A program made the position numbers and the translations under genes. A DNA stretch of 64,000 bases from Phycisphaerae bacterium. GTDB taxonomy: Bacteria; Planctomycetota; Phycisphaerae; Sedimentisphaerales; Sedimentisphaeraceae. Numbering within the stretch: the stretch's first letter is position 1; each line of letters starts with the position of its first letter. The stretch is from the NCBI GenBank assembly GCA_027078365.1, contig JALWYQ010000037.1, positions 23,831 through 87,830 of the forward strand, read 5' to 3'. Below the pieces are notes generated by a model. It was not told the DNA's origin and searched no databases. It saw nothing but the letters and a program-made list of their open reading frames with translations. Shown here piece after piece: positions 13,908 to 52,772 of this stretch.

Positions 13908-13980
13908 GGGGCCGTAGCTCAGTTGGGAGAGCGCTACACTGGCAGTGTAGAAGTCGTGAGTTCGAGTCTCATCGGCTCCA
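13908..13980 (+). tRNA. tRNA-Ala (anticodon GGC)
   Basis: The 73-nt cloverleaf has acceptor GGGGCCG/CGGCTCC containing the G3-U70 wobble pair, the alanine identity element. The anticodon stem is CTACA/TGTAG with loop CTGGCAG, so the anticodon is GGC (Ala, GCC codons). The T-loop is TTCGAGT and the discriminator is A. CCA is not encoded. Its 3' 42 nt are part of the prophage attachment site, so the current 3' half was supplied by the phage. Confidence 0.97.
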
Positions 13981-13982
13981 TT
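13939..13982 (+). repeat. Prophage attachment site attL (44-bp direct repeat)
   Basis: These 44 bases, from the anticodon loop of tRNA-Ala to two bases past its end, recur without mismatch at 52729-52772. The flanking bases differ on both sides (A versus G upstream, C versus A downstream). Integration rebuilds a full tRNA here. Confidence 0.97.
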
Positions 13983-14108: not shown

Positions 14109-15356
14109 ATGCGCAGAAATTACACTTTCAAAGGGTCCATCTTTTGCCAACGTGGACGGCATTACTGGAAGGTTAAAGACCCCCAAACTCGCAAGCGCAG
14201 AACCTTTGCGCTTAAGCCTGCCGGAAGTAGATTCGCAACCTCAGACAAACGGATGGCCAAAGAGATAGCACAACGCAAATGGGACTCCTGGCAAGCGACC
14301 GGAGGCGGCTCGAATACGATTGGCGAGTTAATTGAACTCTACCTTAAATATGTCAAGGAAACTAACGCTCAAGATTCAAATCAGCCATACAAAATCGAAC
14401 TGGCTCTTAGGTTGATCGATAATGTTTCGCTACCGCCCTGCGAATACAGCCCTCTTCTTTTCGATGATACGCGTCAAAAACTAATCAACAAAGGAATAAC
14501 AGCACACACAATCAATACCAAAATGCGGTTTATTATTAAGATGTTTAAGTGGGCAGCCAGCCGAGAGATAGTATCACCACTTACGCCTTATGCTCTGGAA
14601 AATGTTGAAAAGGTAAAAAATAACCATCCAAAATTACGTAGAACAAAGATAAGACAGCCAGCACCGCTGGAAGATGTTCGCAGGACGCTTGCATATTTGC
14701 ATCCGATCTTACGAGCAATGGTGATAACTCAGCTCTATACCGGGACTAGGCCAAGCGAAATGTTACGAATGAAACCATGTGAGATTGACACCAGCGATGA
14801 GATTTGGATATATACGCAAAATAAACATAAAACTGACTATAAAGACGGAGCAAGACCGAGAATTATTCCGCTCAATAAACAAGTCCAAAATGTTTTAATC
14901 CCATTGATCGCGGAGAAAAAGCAGAGCGAATACCTCTTCTCTCCTGCAGATGGCAGAGAGATTGCCACGCAGATTCGTAGCGAGTGTCGCCAAACACCAA
15001 AGAGCTGCGGTAATAGAAGAGGCAAGTCTAGCAGCTATAGACCAGGAGGATTGCAGCTGCGTGAATGTTACGACCACGGATCATATCGAACAGCAATAAG
15101 ACGAGCCATTATGCGGCTTAATCGCGACCTTAAAGCCAGAGACGGCGACAGCTATGCACCAATGCCAATATGGACACCATATCAGCTCAGACATGCAGCA
15201 GCGACCGCGATTAATGCAGTTGATAACGTTGATGCTCTTGGTTTTGCTCAAGCGCTGCTTGGCCATAAAAATAGATCAACCACCGAAATTTACGCAAAAA
15301 TGGGACTGGAAAAGGCTAAAAGAGCAGCAGAGATTTTGAATGATATTGAGATATAA
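14109..15356 (+). CDS. int: Prophage tyrosine integrase
   Basis: This 415 aa tyrosine recombinase is probably responsible for integration at the adjacent tRNA-Ala. The catalytic residues are visible: Arg in TGTRPSEMLRM, the HxxR box in YQLRHAAATA (His-Arg order LRH) with LGHKNRST, and the nucleophile Tyr in TTEIYAKMG. The N-terminal region looks like the AP2/SAM-like arm-binding domain, rich in Arg and Lys. AAGGAG sits eight bases before the ATG. It is the only gene on the left edge and is read away from attL, opposite to the late genes that follow. Confidence 0.95.
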   Translation: MRRNYTFKGSIFCQRGRHYWKVKDPQTRKRRTFALKPAGSRFATSDKRMAKEIAQRKWDSWQATGGGSNTIGELIELYLKYVKETNAQDSNQPYKIELALRLIDNVSLPPCEYSPLLFDDTRQKLINKGITAHTINTKMRFIIKMFKWAASREIVSPLTPYALENVEKVKNNHPKLRRTKIRQPAPLEDVRRTLAYLHPILRAMVITQLYTGTRPSEMLRMKPCEIDTSDEIWIYTQNKHKTDYKDGARPRIIPLNKQVQNVLIPLIAEKKQSEYLFSPADGREIATQIRSECRQTPKSCGNRRGKSSSYRPGGLQLRECYDHGSYRTAIRRAIMRLNRDLKARDGDSYAPMPIWTPYQLRHAAATAINAVDNVDALGFAQALLGHKNRSTTEIYAKMGLEKAKRAAEILNDIEI

Positions 15357-36423: not shown

Positions 36424-37335
36424 CTATTTTTTATCGTTTTTTTCTGCTTGTAAGTCATTGTCCTGTAAGTCTTTATCTAACACCCCAAGAGTTGTACTAG
36501 TCGTTACGTTAATTATGTCCAGTTCATTTACCTTGTTAAAAGTAGAACCATCATCGATGTGTGAATAAATCGCCGTAGTGTTGATGCTTGAGTGTCCAAG
36601 TTGAGCCTGAACAAGCTGTAAATCTTTCGTTTGCCAGTTCGTGTGAGTCCCCAGTGTGTGCCTAAACTTGTGAGGGTACAATCCTTTCAATAACCCTGCC
36701 CTCCTGCCAATTGTCATCACTCTAAACCACAGCCCCTTGCGTGTGTATGGCTTGTGTCTCCTGTTATAAAGCAGCGGTTTCCTATAATTAGTCTCTCCAA
36801 CCCCCTTGGGTAACAATTTAGGGCGGACGTTTTCAACATAATAGGCGATCAATTCAGCCACTTTATTGGGAATCATCACAGTTCTAAGCTTATTCCTCTT
36901 TCCCCGAACCCAAACATAGGGTCTTTTGCAGTCTGGCTCTACAAAAGATGTCTGGTCCACTCTCAAGTTGCAAAGTTCACTATTGCGCAGTCCAGTAGCT
37001 AGTAGCATATTACAAATGAAAAGATCCATGAACCGAGTAGTGCTGGGCGAATGCTCGTACTCGGATGCAAGAAACACAATCAGCTTGCTAAGCTCCGATT
37101 TGGAAAGAAACTTGTCTGGCGTGATGATCCAGTTACTAACCGACTTCGCACCGCCCACCGAGATCCGCTCGATCTCAGCCGCCATCCTGCGAGTGTAGTC
37201 ATATCCCTTGCTGTATCGCTCAAGCATTTTCTCAAGGAAGCGAACATCACTCTTATAAAGCTCAAGCCTATCGGCATTCTGCAAAGCCTTGGCAACCTTC
37301 CTGCTCAAAGCCAAGCTTGGAACATACTCAGCCAT
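36424..37335 (-). CDS. Second tyrosine recombinase (XerC/D-like)
   Basis: The product is 303 aa. The catalytic set is visible: Arg in TGLRNSELCNLR, HxxR in PHKFRHTLGTH, LGHSSINTT, and Tyr in TAIYSHID. It begins with a SAM-like N-domain. GGGAGG lies seven bases before the ATG. It is placed between early genes and terminase, far from the att sites. It is distinct from the tRNA-linked integrase and could resolve dimers, invert DNA or be a remnant integrase. Confidence 0.9.
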   Translation of the reverse strand: MAEYVPSLALSRKVAKALQNADRLELYKSDVRFLEKMLERYSKGYDYTRRMAAEIERISVGGAKSVSNWIITPDKFLSKSELSKLIVFLASEYEHSPSTTRFMDLFICNMLLATGLRNSELCNLRVDQTSFVEPDCKRPYVWVRGKRNKLRTVMIPNKVAELIAYYVENVRPKLLPKGVGETNYRKPLLYNRRHKPYTRKGLWFRVMTIGRRAGLLKGLYPHKFRHTLGTHTNWQTKDLQLVQAQLGHSSINTTAIYSHIDDGSTFNKVNELDIINVTTSTTLGVLDKDLQDNDLQAEKNDKK

Positions 37336-37617: not shown

Positions 37618-38187
37618 CTAGCAATCCCCAGTCGTATTCTCAAGCACCTTACGCTCAACATCCAGCCTACGATTCTCTGCCGCCTCTTGCGTAAATTTTG
37701 ACGGATACCGAACCATCAGCTTGTTAATATTCGCCGCAAGCACATCGTGATAGTCAATCCTTAGCACCATGCAAAAACTAACCAGCATCGCAACAATCCT
37801 CTTAAGTCTGCGAAGCAAAAGAACAGACTCCTGAAACGTATCAACGTCTCGCAAAAAGTCTCCAGCCTCAACAGCCAACACTCTCGCCAAATAGTCATCA
37901 GAGATTAGACTATCAAGCTCGTATTCTTTGATGTCGCGGTCTAGCGTCTCGCAGGCCAGAGCCACATACCAGAAGCAATCACCAATCTCCTCTTTCACAT
38001 TAACCATATCAAGTTTAGATCCATAGAACATGTGCTTCTTGTAAGCGTCAAGCAATTCCGCAGACTCCGTCACCAGCCCAATCGCCGCGTGTAAAAGCAT
38101 ATAGTGATAATTAAACTCCTCGCCATTGTGCGGGTCGATTTTAGAACTAGTTCTTTTCGCCAACCTTTGATATTCTTTAAAATCCAT
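37618..38187 (-). CDS. MazG-like nucleotide pyrophosphohydrolase
   Basis: The product is about 189 aa from an ATG at 38187 with AGGGG upstream (the open frame extends further but is out of phase with a real protein). The metal-binding pattern is GLVTESAELLDAYKKH followed by MVNVKEEIGDCFWYVALACE, the ExxE...ExxD signature of all-alpha NTP pyrophosphatases. Phage MazG proteins hydrolyse dNTPs or alter nucleotide pools during infection. A second helical half (about 100-189) is unassigned. Confidence 0.82.
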   Translation of the reverse strand: MDFKEYQRLAKRTSSKIDPHNGEEFNYHYMLLHAAIGLVTESAELLDAYKKHMFYGSKLDMVNVKEEIGDCFWYVALACETLDRDIKEYELDSLISDDYLARVLAVEAGDFLRDVDTFQESVLLLRRLKRIVAMLVSFCMVLRIDYHDVLAANINKLMVRYPSKFTQEAAENRRLDVERKVLENTTGDC

Positions 38188-38188
38188 G

Positions 38189-38572
38189 CTAACCCCTTTT
38201 AATTTCCCAATTCTTACCATCACAAACAATCGCACGACCATTCTTAACAAGCACCGCCTCGCCGGCTTCAAACTCCAAACACAAATCGTGCTTGATACAC
38301 AAGCAACCATGCTCATCGTGAACACTCCCCTTACATCTCTTGCAGGTGTACTGCTGCGTCTTAACAAACGCTTTGCGTTTCTTTCGTTTCTCGCCAACAT
38401 CAAATAGTTTTTTACAAGCCATCTTAATCCTTTCCACAATAGCGACAAAACGCCAGTCAAAGCGGCAAAGCCAATACAACGCTAAGGCCTCTATGTACAG
38501 AATCATAAGGCTTAACGAGAAAGACATTACTATAGTCCTTACAGTCCTAGCTCCAGCATCTGGATCAATCAT
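38189..38572 (-). CDS. Membrane-anchored zinc-ribbon-like protein, unknown
   Basis: The 127 aa product has a hydrophobic N-terminal segment (IVMSFSLSLMILYIEALALYWLC) and a C-terminal part with cysteine pairs (YTCKRCKGSVHDEHGCLCIKHDLCLEF). Two starts are possible. ATG 38572 has GGAG and AAAGGGA upstream; ATG 38422 also has AAAGGA and would give only the 77 aa zinc domain (MACKKLFDVGEKRKKRK). Either or both may be used. No family recognised. Confidence 0.6.
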   Translation of the reverse strand: MIDPDAGARTVRTIVMSFSLSLMILYIEALALYWLCRFDWRFVAIVERIKMACKKLFDVGEKRKKRKAFVKTQQYTCKRCKGSVHDEHGCLCIKHDLCLEFEAGEAVLVKNGRAIVCDGKNWEIKRG

Positions 38573-44020: not shown

Positions 44021-44023
44021 GTC

Positions 44024-44182
44024 TCAAGACCTCTCAATTATTCTCAATAGTGCAATTTTAGTCAGCCTCAAAACTATTACAAGCTAATAATTGAGGATAA
44101 TTGAGAATTTTTGAGTGTATAATGCGTAACAGTATGAGTTATAAAGAGATACGGGAATTGAGAATTTTTGAGAAATTTCGAG
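44024..44182. promoter_or_regulatory. Phased TTGAG operator arrays in divergent control region
   Basis: TTGAG occurs at 44091, 44101 and 44111 (exact 10-bp period), again at 44158 and 44168 with TCGAG at 44178, and as its complement CTCAA at 44024, 44034 and 44043. A TATAAT (44118-44123) abuts the middle triplet. The sites flank the starts of the leftward early operon and the rightward gene at 44198. Sites on one DNA face every helical turn suggest cooperative binding by a small dimeric repressor. Confidence 0.72.
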
Positions 44183-44197
44183 AAATGCAGGCGAAAC

Positions 44198-44560
44198 ATG
44201 GCTAGATCAGACACAGAAGCAATGTTGGGAGCTAATTTGCCCAGAGATTTCGTTGATATATTCTGGACAAAAGCTATGCCAGGTAGCTCCAAAGCGAGTA
44301 AGGCTCAAGTAGTATTGGCGATGGCTAACGCTTGGGTAGATATGCCAAATGAAGTCAAAAAACATTACCTCTTTCCCGAAGATGAAAGCGATGGGTTTGA
44401 TGACGTCATAGACGCTAAAGTCCGATCCGCAATAAAAAAAATGCTCCCAGAGCTAACCAAGAGCATTTTAAGTGAGATTAAAGGCTACAACCTCATGGAC
44501 GAAGCTCTAAAAGACGCCGAAGAAGACCGCGCAGACAATGTTCGTCACAGTGCCGGATAA
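44198..44560 (+). CDS. First rightward prophage gene, unknown (immunity-region protein)
   Basis: The product is 120 aa (MARSDTEAMLGANLPRDFVDIFWTKAMPGSSKASKAQVVLAMANAWVDMP...), with an acidic middle and a helical C-terminus (KVRSAIKKMLPELTKSILSEIKGYN). It is controlled by the divergent operator region, so it may be the lysogenic regulator. No HTH is clear. Its 3' end resembles a second fragment at 48149-48301, marking the edges of a cargo block. Confidence 0.65.
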   Translation: MARSDTEAMLGANLPRDFVDIFWTKAMPGSSKASKAQVVLAMANAWVDMPNEVKKHYLFPEDESDGFDDVIDAKVRSAIKKMLPELTKSILSEIKGYNLMDEALKDAEEDRADNVRHSAG

Positions 44561-44794
44561 GAATCTTAGTGATAATCTTCACGGCTCTATGCCTGTAATG
44601 GTGCTTACAAAACTGAATAGGCTGACTTTTCTTAACTGACATGTAACTCTCCGTAAAACAAGGTGCAAACTAAAACGGGACAAGCATAACCATTAATTAA
44701 GTATAACTATGAACTAGGTATAACCACTCAATATCAGCACCCGTCAGATTAACCAAATAACCCAAAAAGCAATATTTAAAAGAGGGTAATTAGT
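44561..44794. other. Gap before ParB-like gene
   Basis: No gene is seen in these 234 bases. AGTATAACT and GGTATAACC occur about 17 bases apart near 44700-44725 in an AT-rich stretch and could be promoter elements of the ParB-Dam pair. No strong terminator follows the 44198 gene. Confidence 0.3.
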
Positions 44795-46261
44795 ATGCAA
44801 AATTTTCATGATTGGAAAGAAAGAAAACTGTCAATTAACAAGCTCTTCCTAGATAACAAAAACCCTAGACTCCCCATATCGTCTAGGAACCTAACTCAAA
44901 CCGATCTCCTCTCTGAATTAGTAGCAAAAGACGATGTCTATGAGCTTGCCAAAACAATTACAGACAAAGGCTATATGCCTATTGAAAGTTTAATTGTTAT
45001 AGAAGAAAGCGGCAAAAAGGTTGTAGTGGAGGGCAATCGTAGACTCTCCAGCCTAAAATTGCTCCTAGATCCAAATAAAATAAGCGGGACAATATCAAGA
45101 AAGTTCAGAGCTTTATCACAGAAAATTGATGCCGAAAACATCAAGAAGGTGAAAGTAACAATTGCCCCTTCTCGCGAGGCCGCCAACGTCTACATTGCTA
45201 TGAAGCACACTAAAGGCGGCGGCACAAACAGGTGGAACCATATTGAACAAGCAAGATTCTACAAGGCAATATACAGCGAAGGAAAGACTACATCTCAAAT
45301 AGCAAAAGATTTCTCTATTTCAAACAGCGAAGTAATTAAAGAATTAAGACTACTAACCATGTACGAATTGGCTTGCGAACTAGACCTGCCAGAAGATATT
45401 GCTGCCAAAGTCAGAGACTCTCGCCACTTTCCATCTACCACTCTCGAAAGAATATATGAAAACCAAGACTATAGGGATTGGCTCAGCCTTGACTTCAAAG
45501 GCGAATCTATGGAATGTAAAACAAGTCGGGCTGAATTTAATAAAGGTTACTCTAGGATAGTAACAGATATTGCTTTAGGAAAAATAACATCTCGATCCCA
45601 CAACGACAGAGCTGCTGCCCAAGAATATCTTAAAGAGAATAAGGACTATAAGCCTAGCCCAAGCAAAAAAGAGAAATTCACTTACTCTTGTTTTGCCGGC
45701 TTTAAACTGCTGTCTGATAAAAAAACAGAGAAAGCATCAGCCCCCAAAAAGAAATCAGCTCCCCAAAAAAACCAGAGGCTGGTACCTAGCAAATTCACTT
45801 GCAATACCAGCTGTAACAGGCTTAACGACGTTTTCGCTGAATTCAAGAAAATGAAGATTAACGAAAGCCCTAACACGATAGCTATAATGCTTAGGTGTAT
45901 CCTTGAAATGTCACTTAATCATTACGTTGAAAAAATGGGCTACAGCAAAAAAATCGCCGAATTCTATAGAAGAAAACAGAAAAAAAAGAACGACTGGAGT
46001 CCGTCCCTTAATCAAGTCGTCAATTATCTTTTAGAGCAAGATACTATTGTTTGCGGTAAAATAGAACCTGAAGTAATAAAATCAATAAAAAATATGGCCA
46101 AAGACAATTCTACCTTCTATAATACTGACATGTTAAATGCATTCGTCCACAATAGATTTGTTATTGCTGACGAAAGAGTGCTAAGAGGTTTCTGGGAGCA
46201 ACTCGAACCTCTATTTAAAATCGTGTTGAATAAAGAATATTACGAAAACGAAGAAGGATAG
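44795..46261 (+). CDS. ParB/Srx-domain protein, cargo
   Basis: The product is 488 aa. The N-terminal ParB/sulfiredoxin-like fold reads NKLFLDNKNPRLPISSRN...DVYELAKTITDKGYMPIESLIVIEESGKKVVVEGNRRLSSLKLL. The GNRRL motif marks the nucleotide/DNA-processing site of this superfamily. An HTH-like helix pair follows (TTSQIAKDFSISNSEVIKELR), then a Lys-rich linker and a helical C-terminal domain with LNAFVHNRF. The family includes defence-associated nucleases as well as segregation proteins. GAGGG precedes the ATG. The dam gene starts 3 bases after the stop, so they form an operon. Confidence 0.78.
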   Translation: MQNFHDWKERKLSINKLFLDNKNPRLPISSRNLTQTDLLSELVAKDDVYELAKTITDKGYMPIESLIVIEESGKKVVVEGNRRLSSLKLLLDPNKISGTISRKFRALSQKIDAENIKKVKVTIAPSREAANVYIAMKHTKGGGTNRWNHIEQARFYKAIYSEGKTTSQIAKDFSISNSEVIKELRLLTMYELACELDLPEDIAAKVRDSRHFPSTTLERIYENQDYRDWLSLDFKGESMECKTSRAEFNKGYSRIVTDIALGKITSRSHNDRAAAQEYLKENKDYKPSPSKKEKFTYSCFAGFKLLSDKKTEKASAPKKKSAPQKNQRLVPSKFTCNTSCNRLNDVFAEFKKMKINESPNTIAIMLRCILEMSLNHYVEKMGYSKKIAEFYRRKQKKKNDWSPSLNQVVNYLLEQDTIVCGKIEPEVIKSIKNMAKDNSTFYNTDMLNAFVHNRFVIADERVLRGFWEQLEPLFKIVLNKEYYENEEG

Positions 46262-46264
46262 AGC

Positions 46265-47131
46265 ATGGCAAAAACCTATAGCCCACTTAGGTACCCAGGC
46301 GGTAAAAGTGCACTGATGCCCTTTTTGATGGAAACGATCTACTTGAATCAGCTTCAAGGGTGTACGTATATAGAACCTTTCGCCGGAGGTGCTGGCGCGG
46401 CTTTAGGACTGTTGTTCGGCGAGCATGTAGACAAGATTGTAATAAACGATGTTGATTTTTGTATATACGCCTTTTGGCATTCAATTATGAATAATACGGA
46501 TAAATTCCTTGCCCTCGTAAACGATACAGATGTCAATATTGAAGAATGGCACAAACAACGAGAAATATACAATAAGTGCGACAAGAGATCGTTATTGAAG
46601 GTGGGTTTTGCAACCTTCTTTCTCAATCGCTGCAATAGATCTGGAATTCTCAAAAAGGCAGGGCCAATAGGCGGTAAGGGCCAGAGTGGTAACTGGAAAA
46701 TAGATGCAAGATTCAACAAAAAAAATCTCATAGAACGCTTAGAGCGCGTCGCTTCCTACGGCGAGAGAATAGCTGTGTCCAATTTGAACGCAAACGACTT
46801 ATTGATAAACATCAACTCACAAAAGTCAAATGAGAATATATTAGTTTATCTAGACCCACCTTACTATAACAAGGGAGCAGAGCTATATATAAACCATTTC
46901 CTGCACGACGATCACGCCAACCTGTCCACCCAAATGTGCAAATACGAAAGCTTCAAATGGTTAATTTCTTATGACAATGTAACTCAAATAAAAGACATGT
47001 ATCAAGAAATGAACATAATTGAATTTTCACTAAACTACCACACCAGCAACCCTCGCAAGGGTAGCGAAATCTTGATCTTTAACGACACCATTAAAGTCCC
47101 TAGTACCCTTCTGGGTTCAAAGACAGCGTAA
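46265..47131 (+). CDS. dam: DNA adenine methylase (D12 class)
   Basis: This N6-adenine methyltransferase is 288 aa. It opens YSPLRYPGGKSALMPFL, has EPFAGGAGAALGLLF (SAM motif I), and YLDPPYYNKGAELY (catalytic DPPY motif IV). It is likely to methylate a short site such as GATC. AAGGA precedes the ATG within the end of the ParB-like gene. Encoded in a ParB-like/methylase operon within the prophage, it may protect phage DNA or form part of a restriction-type cassette. Confidence 0.92.
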   Translation: MAKTYSPLRYPGGKSALMPFLMETIYLNQLQGCTYIEPFAGGAGAALGLLFGEHVDKIVINDVDFCIYAFWHSIMNNTDKFLALVNDTDVNIEEWHKQREIYNKCDKRSLLKVGFATFFLNRCNRSGILKKAGPIGGKGQSGNWKIDARFNKKNLIERLERVASYGERIAVSNLNANDLLININSQKSNENILVYLDPPYYNKGAELYINHFLHDDHANLSTQMCKYESFKWLISYDNVTQIKDMYQEMNIIEFSLNYHTSNPRKGSEILIFNDTIKVPSTLLGSKTA

Positions 47132-47245
47132 GATGTCCACTTTCTCGTCATTTCTTGCCATAACTTAGCACAGAGAAACACGACACAACCAATTACAACC
47201 AAACAATTTACGAAACAAACAATCAAGACTCTTAGAAACACAGTA

Positions 47246-47869
47246 TTGCCCTACCATGAATTCGCAAAAGATCTTGTTAGAAACTGGCTAGTTGAACATA
47301 AATTTAAAGGTTGGAACAAAACGGAAACCACTGGCAGGCCCGTGACACAAGAAATGAAAGCAAAACAAGCCGCATTCATTGCGAAAGAGCTCGCAGACCA
47401 TTCAAAATGGCGGTCGCATGGAAGATCTTTGAAAATAAAAAATCTGAAAGAAATAGGATTGCGAATAACAAAGGTGGATGAAACCCCAGATTTTGCCGAT
47501 GTAGTGCATAGAATCCAAACGGTATGCGGGTTACTGTTTGACAACACCAGCATTTTTAAGGTTTTTGCAACCAAAGATCGCAAGATATTTAGGCAAGAGA
47601 TGCAAGGTGGCAGCAGGCATCAAGTTCCGCAGTTTCACAATAGCCCGTCTGCCGCATCAGTTGTGAAGTATTGCCCAAACTGCCGTACCAGACATAGTTA
47701 TTACGCCAAGTTCATTAATAATCCACAGATAGACGCTGATTTTGCAAGAAAAGGAGTGAAACCGCTCCCTAAAAATGCTAAAATAAAGTGTGCTTGTGGT
47801 GTTGAGATTGATTTATCTGAATGGAAAAAAAAAGTAGAAATGGATTTTGGAAGGAAGTTGATTTTTTAA
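47246..47869 (+). CDS. Possible 5'-truncated Clp-fold serine protease remnant with zinc ribbon
   Basis: The 207 aa product begins at a TTG. It has a helical segment (HEFAKDLVRNWLVEHKFKGW), then KELADHSKWRSHGRSLKIKNLKEIGLRITKV, and a C-terminal zinc ribbon (YCPNCRTRHSYY...IKCACGVEIDL). The SHGRxL plus LGL-x-(V/I) pattern resembles the C-terminal part of SDH/SppA-like Clp-fold proteases, but the half that would carry the catalytic Ser is absent. The frame stays open for about 80 bases upstream. Either a truncated remnant or an unrelated small protein. Confidence 0.4.
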   Translation: MPYHEFAKDLVRNWLVEHKFKGWNKTETTGRPVTQEMKAKQAAFIAKELADHSKWRSHGRSLKIKNLKEIGLRITKVDETPDFADVVHRIQTVCGLLFDNTSIFKVFATKDRKIFRQEMQGGSRHQVPQFHNSPSAASVVKYCPNCRTRHSYYAKFINNPQIDADFARKGVKPLPKNAKIKCACGVEIDLSEWKKKVEMDFGRKLIF

Positions 47870-47890
47870 TTTATATTGTGGGGCATAGAA

Positions 47891-48061
47891 ATGGAATTGG
47901 AAGGAACAACATTTATTGACGACACAGTGACAACTTTTCTAGTGGAGACAAAAGACGGCAAATTTGCCGAAGTAACAGCCTGTCCTCCGGATGTTATTAG
48001 GATGAAAGCAGAAAGAATAATGGTAGAAGATGAGTATTATAGATATAAAACCACAACTTGA
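47891..48061 (+). CDS. Small acidic protein, unknown
   Basis: The 56 aa product (MELEGTTFIDDTVTTFLVETKDGKFAEVTACPPDVIRMKAERIMV) is encoded 21 bases after the truncated protease-like gene and just before a strong terminator. The start at 47891 has a weak GGGGC site. It could be a partner or antidote of the cargo genes. No family recognised. Confidence 0.5.
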   Translation: MELEGTTFIDDTVTTFLVETKDGKFAEVTACPPDVIRMKAERIMVEDEYYRYKTTT

Positions 48062-48083
48062 TCATCTACAAACTTAGACACTT

Positions 48084-48112
48084 AAGACCCCATCTAATTG
48101 GGGTCTTTTTTT
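48084..48112 (+). terminator. Rho-independent terminator of the ParB-Dam cargo operon
   Basis: AAGACCCCA (48084-48092) pairs with TGGGGTCTT (48099-48107) around a 6-base loop, followed by a run of T to 48112. Confidence 0.9.
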
Positions 48113-48148
48113 ATGCGATAAGCGAATTAGCAAGCATCTAAACAATTA

Positions 48149-48301
48149 GCAATCAAAGACATGCTCCCAAAACTAACCAAAACGCTCAAGGATGAAATTT
48201 TCCGCAGCAAAGCCAAATCTATTGTAGATAAATCTTCTCAAGCTGCTCAAGCAGCCCAGCAGCAAACTCTGGACAAGAGTGGCTCAACAGGAGCCGCTTA
48301 A
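48149..48301 (+). pseudogene. 3' fragment of a paralogue of the gene at 44198
   Basis: In frame from 48149 the sequence reads AIKDMLPKLTKTLKDEIFRS then KAKSIVDKSSQAAQAAQQQTL and ends at a TAA at 48301. The first part matches AIKKMLPELTKSILSEIKGY of the 44198 gene, with about three quarters of the first 36 bases identical. A TAG lies just upstream in frame. It is a fragment left behind when the ParB-Dam block was inserted or duplicated, although a 46 aa start at 48161 cannot be ruled out. Confidence 0.65.
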
Positions 48302-48550: not shown

Positions 48551-51500
48551 ATGTCTTTTGCAAGTCGGCAATTAATTGAGAAATTTGATCTGACAAGAGT
48601 ATCTGCGCCCCTTTTTTTCCGTTCTGCGGATGATATAGAGAGATTTGCGGGCAAGCACCCTTATTCCCACCTAATGAGACGAGCATGGGAAACAATGCAT
48701 CTCAATGGCATACTATGCGTCGATGGCCGCCCTACAGTCTACTTCAAAGAAGTTAAACGCTTGGATTCTATTAGGCAACATAATCGTTATCGCAAATTCT
48801 GGAACCAGGGCCTGGCAACGCTTCTTGTTGTAAGCAGTCCTGACCAGGTTCAGGTTTTTTCGAGCTTGGCAAAGCCGGTCAAAGAAGATTCGCAAGTAGA
48901 CAATGAGGGTCGACTTGTAGAAATACTTGATTCTACCACTAAAGTACTCAACTTTGTCAAAAGGGTTCAGAGCGGACAGATATACAGAGACAAACCTCAG
49001 TGTTTCGACTCAAACCAGACGGTCGACAAGTTCCTTCTCCGGAATTTAAGCGAAGCACGAGATCAATTACACCAACATAACAATTTGAGTTATAAAGTTG
49101 TACACGCACTTCTTGGCCGTGTCATCTTCGCTTGCTACCTTATTGAACGCGGCATTATCGATGAAAGCCTTTTTGCTGAAGCAAATGCAAAGGGAATCAA
49201 AAGCCTTCACGAGCTTCTAACGCAATACGATAACACCAAAGCAAAAAAAATCCTCTACGACCTTTTCGCAGTATTACAGCGGCATTTCAATGGAAGCATG
49301 TTTGATGATACCGTCGAAAAAGAAAGGCCGCAAATTGACGACAAGCACATTTCGATTCTTCGTCGTTTTTTAATTGGTGAAGAATTAAAAAGCAAACAGT
49401 CTACTTTTGATTTCTGGGCCTATGATTTCAGCGTAATCCCAATAGAAACTATAAGCTCTATTTACGAAGAATTCCTTGGTGCTGAGGATAAAGCCGGAAA
49501 GAGAAAAAGCGGGGCATACTATACACCTAAACACCTTGCTGAAATGGTAGTCGATGTTGCTACCTCTGAATGGAACAGCCTTCTCGATAAGAGAATTTTG
49601 GATCCTGCCTGCGGGTCAGGAATATTCCTTGTGATAATTTTTAACCGGATAGCAGAGCAATGGCGATATAAAAACCCAGGAGTTCACAATATAACTCGTG
49701 CAGAGGCTCTATTAGAAATCATCAGAGAAAAGATATGCGGTATAGATGTCAACGAAACCGCTTGTCGTATTGCCTGCTTTAGCCTCTACCTTGCCTTCCT
49801 TGATCAATTGAAGCCAAGAGAAATTTATGAACTGGAAGCGAAACGTGGCAAGATACTTGACAATTTCCTCGCCCTGAAAGACAGTGCTTATTCCAACAAT
49901 GAATCCCCCGTCATTTTCGAAGGCGATTTCTTCGAAAATACTATACCAGCTGCAAAAAACTTTGACTTGGTTATCGGCAACCCCCCATGGGTAAGCAGGG
50001 GCAGGGCTTCAGACGCTAAGGCGTTAGACTGGTGCTTGAGCGAAGACAATAACCCGTATTTAGACGATGCCCCAAGGGCAAAGGCTGATCGTAAAAAATA
50101 TTTTCTTCCAGCCAGACAAATTGCTCATGCTTTTATGTGGAAATCTTCGGTTCATTTAAACGATAACGGTAAGGCATGCTTGGTTTTATCAACAAAGGTA
50201 CTTTTCAACAATTCTACAGATAAATTCCAGGCTGGCTGGTTCTCAAACGTTACTGTAGAGAAAGTTGTACAACTGTCCGACTGGCGACATATTCTTTTTG
50301 AAAACGCTGTCAGCCCATCTGTAATAGTTAAGTACAACGCCCGTAAGCCCAAAGACGATTATTCTATTGACTACGAAGTACCAAAGGTCAGTAGTTGTGA
50401 TCCGAGAAGAGGGGTCATTCATATATCACCTGAGGACCAAAAAACTATCCGACTATTCGACATACAGCAATATGCCAAGAAAAACAAAATCTCTATAGCG
50501 TGGAAAGAAAAGTTCTGGGGAACAAGGCGTGATAATCTCCTGCTGGATAGATTGCTTGAGATGCCCTGCCTCGGAGAACTGGTTAGTAAACCAAAGGAAA
50601 AAACAAACCTCTTCATAGCAAGCCAAGGCTTCCAGCCATTTAATGAGGAACGGTATTCGGAAGGCAAAAAAGCTTATGGTGAACCACAACCTGCTTGGTG
50701 GACACCAGAACAACTATATATTGATGCCAAGAAAATCGGGCCAAACTTAATCATAACCAAAAAAAATTGCGAAAAAGTAGGACCCAGATTTAAGAAATTA
50801 CACAGAATCCGGGACAAAAGAATATACACGCGTCCAAAGGTTCTAGTGAATAAGGGCTTCACGAAAGCTGTTTATTGCGACTTTGAAGCAATTTTCCAAG
50901 ACGCCATATATTCTATTTCTGGTTCACCATCTAATTATAGATTGTTAATGTTTATTGCAGCAGTTTTAAATTCAAAACTTGCTAAGTACTTTCAATTTCA
51001 CACCTCCGCTAATTTAGGTATAGAGAGGGAACAAATTTTTCCTACTGAATATAAACGGATTCCATTCCCTCTTCCTAAAGACACTGAAAACCCGGAAGAA
51101 TCAGATAGGATAATAAATGAAATAGCCATGCATATGAGTGATCTTAAAGCATTGATCGAGAAAGACTTTATGCTTCAAGAGGAAAAGGTAGCTTTGGCTG
51201 CTGAAAAAATAGAGGTTTTGCTATATAAATATTATGGAATATCTCAACATGAGCAGTTGCTCATTGATGATACTGTGAATATTTTCAAAAGTAGCATGAT
51301 GCCAACCTCCATCAATAGCAGAGTCAAAACCATCGGATGCCCTACCCCTAACGAAAGAAAAGGTTATGCAGAGTTGCTCTGCTCAATATTAAATACATGG
51401 GCCAAACGAAGCGATTTTCATGTGAATGGCAGGGTTGAATACTCAGAGATTTTAGGCACATCAATAGTAACACTTGTGAAATCTCATAAAACTGAGCGGT

Positions 51501-51730
51501 ACAGTGAGACGAAAACATCCGACGATCTGCATGCAGCTTTAAAGAACATTCAAAATGCCCTACCCAAAAAGATGGGTAAATTTGTTTATCACCGTCACCT
51601 GAAAGTCTTTGATGGGAATCAGCTTTATATTCTTAAACCACTTTCACGAAGGTACTGGACAAAAACAGCGGCTATAAATGATGCTGATGAAATTGCTGTA
51701 GCAATACTCTCTTCAGAAGGGAGTCGTTGA
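48551..51730 (+). CDS. Type IIG/Eco57I-like adenine DNA methyltransferase
   Basis: The product is 1059 aa. An N-terminal domain of about 300 aa (LCVDGRPTVYFKEVKRLD, WNQGLATLLVVSSPDQVQVFS) precedes the methyltransferase. The SAM motif is ILDPACGSGIFLVIIFNRIAE, and the catalytic NPPW is in FDLVIGNPPWVSRGRA. A target-recognition region follows (about 680-900), then a helical C-terminus. The N-terminal D-x10-15-ExK-like DGRPTVYFKEVK may be a relic nuclease site but lacks a clear ExK. The next gene overlaps it (TGATG) and encodes a PD-(D/E)xK fold, so the pair is probably one restriction-modification-like system. Confidence 0.85.
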   Translation: MSFASRQLIEKFDLTRVSAPLFFRSADDIERFAGKHPYSHLMRRAWETMHLNGILCVDGRPTVYFKEVKRLDSIRQHNRYRKFWNQGLATLLVVSSPDQVQVFSSLAKPVKEDSQVDNEGRLVEILDSTTKVLNFVKRVQSGQIYRDKPQCFDSNQTVDKFLLRNLSEARDQLHQHNNLSYKVVHALLGRVIFACYLIERGIIDESLFAEANAKGIKSLHELLTQYDNTKAKKILYDLFAVLQRHFNGSMFDDTVEKERPQIDDKHISILRRFLIGEELKSKQSTFDFWAYDFSVIPIETISSIYEEFLGAEDKAGKRKSGAYYTPKHLAEMVVDVATSEWNSLLDKRILDPACGSGIFLVIIFNRIAEQWRYKNPGVHNITRAEALLEIIREKICGIDVNETACRIACFSLYLAFLDQLKPREIYELEAKRGKILDNFLALKDSAYSNNESPVIFEGDFFENTIPAAKNFDLVIGNPPWVSRGRASDAKALDWCLSEDNNPYLDDAPRAKADRKKYFLPARQIAHAFMWKSSVHLNDNGKACLVLSTKVLFNNSTDKFQAGWFSNVTVEKVVQLSDWRHILFENAVSPSVIVKYNARKPKDDYSIDYEVPKVSSCDPRRGVIHISPEDQKTIRLFDIQQYAKKNKISIAWKEKFWGTRRDNLLLDRLLEMPCLGELVSKPKEKTNLFIASQGFQPFNEERYSEGKKAYGEPQPAWWTPEQLYIDAKKIGPNLIITKKNCEKVGPRFKKLHRIRDKRIYTRPKVLVNKGFTKAVYCDFEAIFQDAIYSISGSPSNYRLLMFIAAVLNSKLAKYFQFHTSANLGIEREQIFPTEYKRIPFPLPKDTENPEESDRIINEIAMHMSDLKALIEKDFMLQEEKVALAAEKIEVLLYKYYGISQHEQLLIDDTVNIFKSSMMPTSINSRVKTIGCPTPNERKGYAELLCSILNTWAKRSDFHVNGRVEYSEILGTSIVTLVKSHKTERYSETKTSDDLHAALKNIQNALPKKMGKFVYHRHLKVFDGNQLYILKPLSRRYWTKTAAINDADEIAVAILSSEGSR

Positions 51731-52389
51731 TGTCAGTAGCTATAGTTGGAGAGGCTGGAGGCTGGAAGAAGGATCTGTTTCCAGACGAGCTAATCCCTGA
51801 TATATTGGAATTTGTCGTGGAAACTTGGAAGGCTTTCAACAAACCCTGCCGCCTTGACCATGAAGTTCTGATTTCTAAGGCCTTTACAAAAAAACTTCAG
51901 CAAGAAAAAAACATACAGAACAAGTTGCCATTCCAGATACGACCTGAAATTGAAACTTCCGATTCTCCAATGGGAAAGGATGGCCGAATAGACATCTGTT
52001 TTATCTTTATGGGTACTACAAGGGAAAATATTTACTTCGCTTTTGAGTGCAAAAGATTGCGTATTCCCCAACAAGCACCCAAAAAGCCTGTGACTAACAA
52101 TAGTGACTATGTTGGGGAGCAAGGCATGATGTGTTTTGTTACAGGAAAATATAGCAGTAACGTAAAACATGGAGGAATGATCGGATATATTATGGATGGC
52201 AAAACCACCTCTGCTATCACCTCTGTCACAAAACTTATAAATAAAAAACGGTCAGACCTTAAGCTATCCCTCGGATCAAGCCTTGACGCTTCCTCAATCA
52301 TGGCAAAACATCCAAATATAAAGGAAACCAGACACAACCTCCTCAACAGAAAGGAATTTACAATCCATCATGTTTTCCTCCCTGTATAA
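51730..52389 (+). CDS. PD-(D/E)xK nuclease-like partner of the methyltransferase
   Basis: The 219 aa product carries GKDGRIDICFIFMGTTRENIYFAFECKRL: Asp followed about 15 residues later by Glu-Cys-Lys on the next strand, as expected of a PD-(D/E)xK nuclease core. GEQGMMCFVTGKYSSNVKHGGMIGYIMDG follows. The ATG shares bases with the upstream stop, implying coupled synthesis. It is probably the cleavage subunit. An alternative is a catalytically inactive scaffold. Confidence 0.7.
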   Translation: MSVAIVGEAGGWKKDLFPDELIPDILEFVVETWKAFNKPCRLDHEVLISKAFTKKLQQEKNIQNKLPFQIRPEIETSDSPMGKDGRIDICFIFMGTTRENIYFAFECKRLRIPQQAPKKPVTNNSDYVGEQGMMCFVTGKYSSNVKHGGMIGYIMDGKTTSAITSVTKLINKKRSDLKLSLGSSLDASSIMAKHPNIKETRHNLLNRKEFTIHHVFLPV

Positions 52390-52728: not shown

Positions 52729-52772
52729 CTGGCAGTGTAGAAGTCGTGAGTTCGAGTCTCATCGGCTCCATT
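52729..52772 (+). repeat. Prophage attachment site attR
   Basis: Perfect copy of the 44-bp attL repeat. Only the 3' part of a tRNA is present (no acceptor 5' strand or D arm), so it is not a functional tRNA. It is the displaced host 3' end. Confidence 0.97.

Follow-up and report, generated by a model that had tools for sequence, protein, structure and literature searches.

A probable prophage defense hotspot with two truncated gene relics in a Phycisphaerae bacterium

Introduction

Prophage defense hotspots of the P2/P4 type are phage-borne loci of high turnover, in which diverse anti-phage systems occupy a set position on the phage map (PMC9122126). They measure 1 to 5 kb and lie between two conserved phage genes, directly by cos, and recombination between co-infecting or co-resident phages has been proposed to account for their turnover (2022, PMC9122126). 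One of the systems described as prophage-borne is PD-lambda-5, which was found by functional selection in the Escherichia coli pangenome (Vassallo et al. 2022, PMC9519451).

Here we describe the right end of a prophage contained in a 64,000-nucleotide stretch of Phycisphaerae DNA (the window, to which all coordinates refer). The region is best read as a prophage defense hotspot, a locus of a known kind in which the record of turnover is unusually legible, and it adds a case from the prophages of a little-studied Planctomycetota class. Two apparently intact defense modules flank two 5'-truncated relics, and these scars suggest that the defense cargo has been replaced more than once.

Bounds of the Prophage

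An exact 44-nt direct repeat (attL and attR) encloses a prophage of ~38.8 kb, whose ends are defined by the following features.

13908-13980: tRNA-Ala, detected by ARAGORN
13939..13982, no strand: attL, the left copy of the 44-bp repeat, which covers the 3' end of tRNA-Ala
14109..15356, + strand: tyrosine integrase of the prophage, at its left end (PHROG 1 integrase, 2e-42; Pfam Phage_integrase)
52729..52772, no strand: attR, the exact 44-bp repeat of attL

Its genes include those for the tape measure, the portal, a protease-fused head protein, and the large terminase subunit. Relatives of the portal protein, with up to 59 to 62% identity, are present in 21 other genomes (relatives sample, n = 148). 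The early region also encodes a second tyrosine recombinase of 303 aa (36424-37335), and a gene for a MazG-like pyrophosphatase is found in the prophage at 37618-38460. The block studied here is the right end of the prophage, from the divergent control region onward, and its cargo reaches attR.

44023..44172, no strand: array of TTGAG/CTCAA boxes resembling operators, spaced mostly at 10 bp, in the interval that separates the divergent control genes, with inverted repeats I2 and I3
44198..44560, + strand: 44198 gene of the control region (120 aa), bearing tail copy 1 (44429-44460)
44795..46261, + strand: PD-Lambda-5 protein A, ParB-like, 488 aa (PADLOC PD-Lambda-5_A, 5.8e-71 over residues 9-478)
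46265..47131, + strand: PD-Lambda-5 protein B, D12-class N6-adenine methyltransferase, 288 aa (PADLOC PD-Lambda-5_B, 1.2e-116)
47237/47246-47869, + strand: 5'-truncated relic of an SDH/ClpP-like peptidase, ~210 C-terminal residues, recognized by alignment to a Leptospira plasmid peptidase
47876/47891-48061, + strand: small gene, partner of the peptidase, with a counterpart behind the Leptospira peptidase gene
48084..48107, + strand: intrinsic terminator (9-bp stem, T run) that closes the unit of peptidase and small gene
48149..48301, + strand: tail copy 2, the last 50 codons of a second gene of the 44198 type, a relic with an intact stop that lacks the 5' part
48551..51730, + strand: type IIG-like restriction-modification protein/Eco57I-type N6-methyltransferase, 1059 aa (PADLOC REase_MTase_IIG, 1.6e-84)
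51727..52389, + strand: partner of 220 aa with a predicted PD-(D/E)XK nuclease motif, its gene starting within the last 4 bp of the methyltransferase gene

Control Region

The product of the 44198 gene is predicted to be a small DNA-binding regulator, an assignment that we regard as probable. Twelve other genomes of the order contain homologs (13 of 161, with the genome of the window included), and several of the homologous genes are divergent from HTH or 64-aa genes, as here. Outside G115 these relatives are distant, with 14 to 21% identity over the alignment, and several lie on broken MAG contigs. Conservation within the family stops at about residue 80, exactly where the tail repeat starts, and the C-termini differ among all relatives. 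A ribbon-helix-helix fold considered for the protein was dropped, the two-sequence AlphaFold model being too poor (pLDDT 63), and a PDB sequence search with the protein returned noise matches only.

Nine TTGAG/CTCAA boxes occur within 220 bp; of 580 windows of equal size, just one contains as many. Helically phased in 10-bp steps, they are likely to be operators, and their density fits a DNA-binding regulator, possibly the 44198 product. The minus strand also contains a 13-bp hairpin with a T run (44438-44469), which lies at tail copy 1 within the 44198 gene and is terminator-like toward the leftward genes. This hairpin was rejected as the cause of the tail repeat, copy 2 being devoid of the right arm.

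Cargo Genes

The ParB-like and D12 methylase genes lie 3 bp apart, and almost the whole of either product aligns with its PADLOC model; protein B is also recognized by Pfam MethyltransfD12 (8e-22) and contains DPPY. Judged by its sequence, the pair is a PD-lambda-5 defense system and apparently intact. Marinobacter phage AS1 and Vibrio phage ValB1MD-2 encode distant relatives, which are also located near the integrase.

The peptidase relic aligns with ~41% identity to residues 183-399 of the 404-aa Leptospira plasmid peptidase, in which the SDH/ClpP-like (SDH_protease) domain occupies residues 67-139. The counterpart of residues 1-183, the catalytic half that contains this domain, was not found in the window. 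Leptospira keeps the full peptidase gene and, behind it, a gene for 61 aa at the same place and of the same size as the small gene here, the similarity between the two small products being weak (score 40; shuffles ≤34). No phage relatives of the peptidase relic were found.

In the second module, the 48551 protein contains an N6-methyltransferase domain (Pfam N6_Mtase, 5e-19; Eco57I, 1e-16). The 220-aa partner has no match in Pfam, NCBIfam, PHROG, or PADLOC; its motif, G-R/Q-x-D ... E-x-K, is conserved in 10 of 10 homologs, and its gene is found directly behind the methyltransferase gene in G147, G111, G146, and G075. This conservation of a separate partner suggests that the restriction module may act as a two-gene system, and the two proteins together appear to form a second, intact defense module. 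The closest two standalone pairs are 63 to 67% identical in the methyltransferase and 54 to 58% in the partner. Since the module thus occurs alone elsewhere, and no shared flanks were found around it in other genomes, it is a separate unit. The pair is widespread in the order (loci L077, L078, L081, and L082), and the two closest examples lie among host genes.

Tail Repeat

A direct repeat connects the 3' part of the 44198 gene (44429-44460, GCAATAAAAAAAATGCTCCCAGAGCTAACCAA) with a stretch behind the terminator (48149-48180, GCAATCAAAGACATGCTCCCAAAACTAACCAA). The copies, identical at 27 of 32 nt (84%), share one reading frame and translate to AIKKMLPELTK and AIKDMLPKLTK, respectively. When the 44198 gene was compared with the rest of the right end, the best ungapped score was 22, while the maximum was 18 in 271 trials (150 codon shuffles and 121 other pieces of the window) and 20 in a further set of 500 codon shuffles (Gumbel p ~3e-4 for a score of 22). 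The similarity sets in abruptly at GCA and fades past ~32 nt, and the sequences beyond are unlike. Downstream of both tails, the only match is the 12-mer CAGATTAACCAA (44745 and 48371), which is reached by 22 of 500 shuffles; a common downstream region after both tails was rejected because this 12-mer is at the chance level. An in-frame TAG (48128-48130) precedes the 48149 copy, from which 50 codons lead to its own stop, and the copy is therefore a 5'-truncated gene end and not a second full gene. The 50-aa tail has no convincing homolog in related genomes or viral contigs, and no relative with such a tail was found.

A first-pass annotation of this DNA had reported both the reappearance of the gene end and the order of what lies between its copies (a ParB-like gene, a D12 methylase gene 3 bp behind it, a truncated protease-like gene, a tiny gene, and a terminator). 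Our data agree with it on these points: the alignment places the homology of the two tails above every null set, and the protease-like gene proves to be the C-terminal part of an SDH peptidase.

Relatives

The position behind the 44198-type gene is occupied by different cargo, or by none, in related phages. In G053:C210, whose prophage has a portal protein 56% identical to the one described here, the uninterrupted 44198-type gene ends 22 bp from the integrase gene, and in G115 the corresponding distance is 57 bp. In G044, a type I-C CRISPR-Cas locus starts ~270 bp behind the 44198-type gene on the same strand. It is complete, with Cas3, 5, 8c, 7, 4, and 1 and an array of ~26 repeats in two repeat variants (L083, G044:C48, 6029-15904); the right edge of this prophage was not found, and a search for att-like repeats around the CRISPR locus gave none. 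Small membrane or zinc-ribbon proteins are encoded behind the gene in G020, G091, and G096.

Prophages related by their portal proteins but equipped with other control genes were also compared. The distance from control region to recombinase is within ~1 kb in G042:C100, G016, and G029:C171. In G042:C71 (L040, 5-8130), Cas9 (1196 aa), Cas1, Cas2, and an array of 31 repeats are located between the control region and an integrase at the contig edge, probably as a prophage-borne type II CRISPR-Cas system; no att-like repeats were found on this contig.

No relatives emerged from viral contigs when these were searched with the 44198 protein, its alignment, PD-lambda-5 protein A, the peptidase relic, or the 50-aa tail, and the search of genome contigs found only PWDX01000117, the G115 contig, from a Phycisphaerae bacterium of the same order. 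Among the relatives, none was found with both tails, with an intermediate state, or with an intact gene that ends in the 48149 tail.

Discussion

The interval between the 44198 gene and attR is, in our reading, rather probably a variable cargo region that arose by layered replacement, in which recombination between related phages left scars. A phage with the restriction module behind its own 44198-type gene would have recombined, at non-matching points, with relatives bearing other cargo. These relatives would have had their cargo behind their own 44198-type genes, and the peptidase pair would have come first and PD-lambda-5 later. Each exchange would have swapped the side of the control gene and cut the 5' side of the older cargo, and the 48149 tail would be the scar of an older control gene. 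Since two relics of different genes, both without their 5' ends, lie between complete modules, repeated exchange on the control side is the simplest explanation. The base composition agrees with such a history, as both 44198-type segments (44 to 45% GC) are near the phage core (45%), while the cargo genes are lower (37 to 41%). We infer this layering from the arrangement itself, and its order of events is observed in no relative. Against it stands the shortness of the homologous stretch, 32 nt, as one event with later decay would lead to the same arrangement.

The first-pass annotation had favored the insertion of one cassette. In this model, PD-lambda-5, the peptidase remnant, and the small gene came in together where the 44198 gene ends, by recombination that was either site-specific or guided by short homology. 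The cassette would have brought a new end for the gene and displaced the old tail to 48149, in the manner of islands that occupy the tail of a tRNA or housekeeping gene. The order and frame fit: the gene to the left is intact, the tail to the right would be a displaced one that kept its stop, and the repeat is found at both edges. We nevertheless regard one cassette as unlikely, given that the core is only 84% identical, that no recombinase is found among the genes at 44561-48148, that conservation in the 44198 family is lowest in the gene tail, and that the truncated peptidase demands a further event. The near-identical core repeat and internal recombinase of an integrase-driven island are thus both lacking at 44561-48148. 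Two copies of one gene end in a single prophage, together with the 12-mer common to their 3' sides, might also point to a local duplication of the 44198 region within one prophage lineage, one copy of which lost its 5' part upon insertion or exchange of cargo. The unlike sequences past the 32-nt core imply separate histories, however, and with the 12-mer at the chance level we consider duplication improbable. Least credible of all is that the 48149 reading frame is an unrelated small gene or noncoding DNA that resembles the 44198 gene by accident: the absence of a convincing homolog of its 50 aa would fit, but a score above all null maxima, in the same frame, makes this very hard to accept.

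The earlier annotation is partly supported. Foreign cargo in a prophage, with one tail as a fragment of a 44198 relative, is upheld, and uninterrupted 44198-type genes with different cargo or none, which it had proposed to look for, do exist (G053:C210, G115, and G044). The hotspot that it envisaged is supported in part, by the variable region behind 44198-type genes; its conserved gene tail as the insertion point is not supported, given that all relatives differ beyond residue ~80 and the copies match over 32 nt only. Nor is the single cassette, as two 5'-truncated relics of different genes point to more than one event. The unit was also drawn too short: it does not end at 48301, for the second defense module runs on to 52389 and the prophage to attR.

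Judged by the families to which its proteins belong, this cargo is likely to defend the lysogen from other phages. A broader reading is that this Phycisphaerae prophage lineage may stack whole defense systems, up to complete CRISPR-Cas loci, behind its control gene, each layer cutting the 5' side of the previous one so that scars record past cargo. We put this forward tentatively and as a doubtful extension; if it were true, the order of cargo turnover in prophages would be directly readable from such scars.

Compared with known systems, the ParB-like/D12 pair resembles the PD-lambda-5 of Vassallo et al. (2022, PMC9519451) as a two-gene, prophage-borne system with near full-length matches in both components, but it is distant, its best relative in the phage collection being 24% identical over the full length. 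The second module shares with type IIG/Eco57I-like restriction-modification enzymes an N6-methyltransferase fold and a near full-length match to the PADLOC type IIG models, and it differs from them in the separate, conserved 220-aa protein of PD-(D/E)XK type alongside. As in the P2/P4-type hotspots (PMC9122126), varied anti-phage cargo is found at one place in the phage map. The placement is not P2-like: the cargo lies between the control gene and attR, the capsid is a protease-fused head protein, and the portal gene (PF05136) is 11 kb away. Unlike those hotspots, the one described here holds 8.2 kb of cargo, belongs to another prophage family, from the Phycisphaerae, and displays visible gene-end scars.
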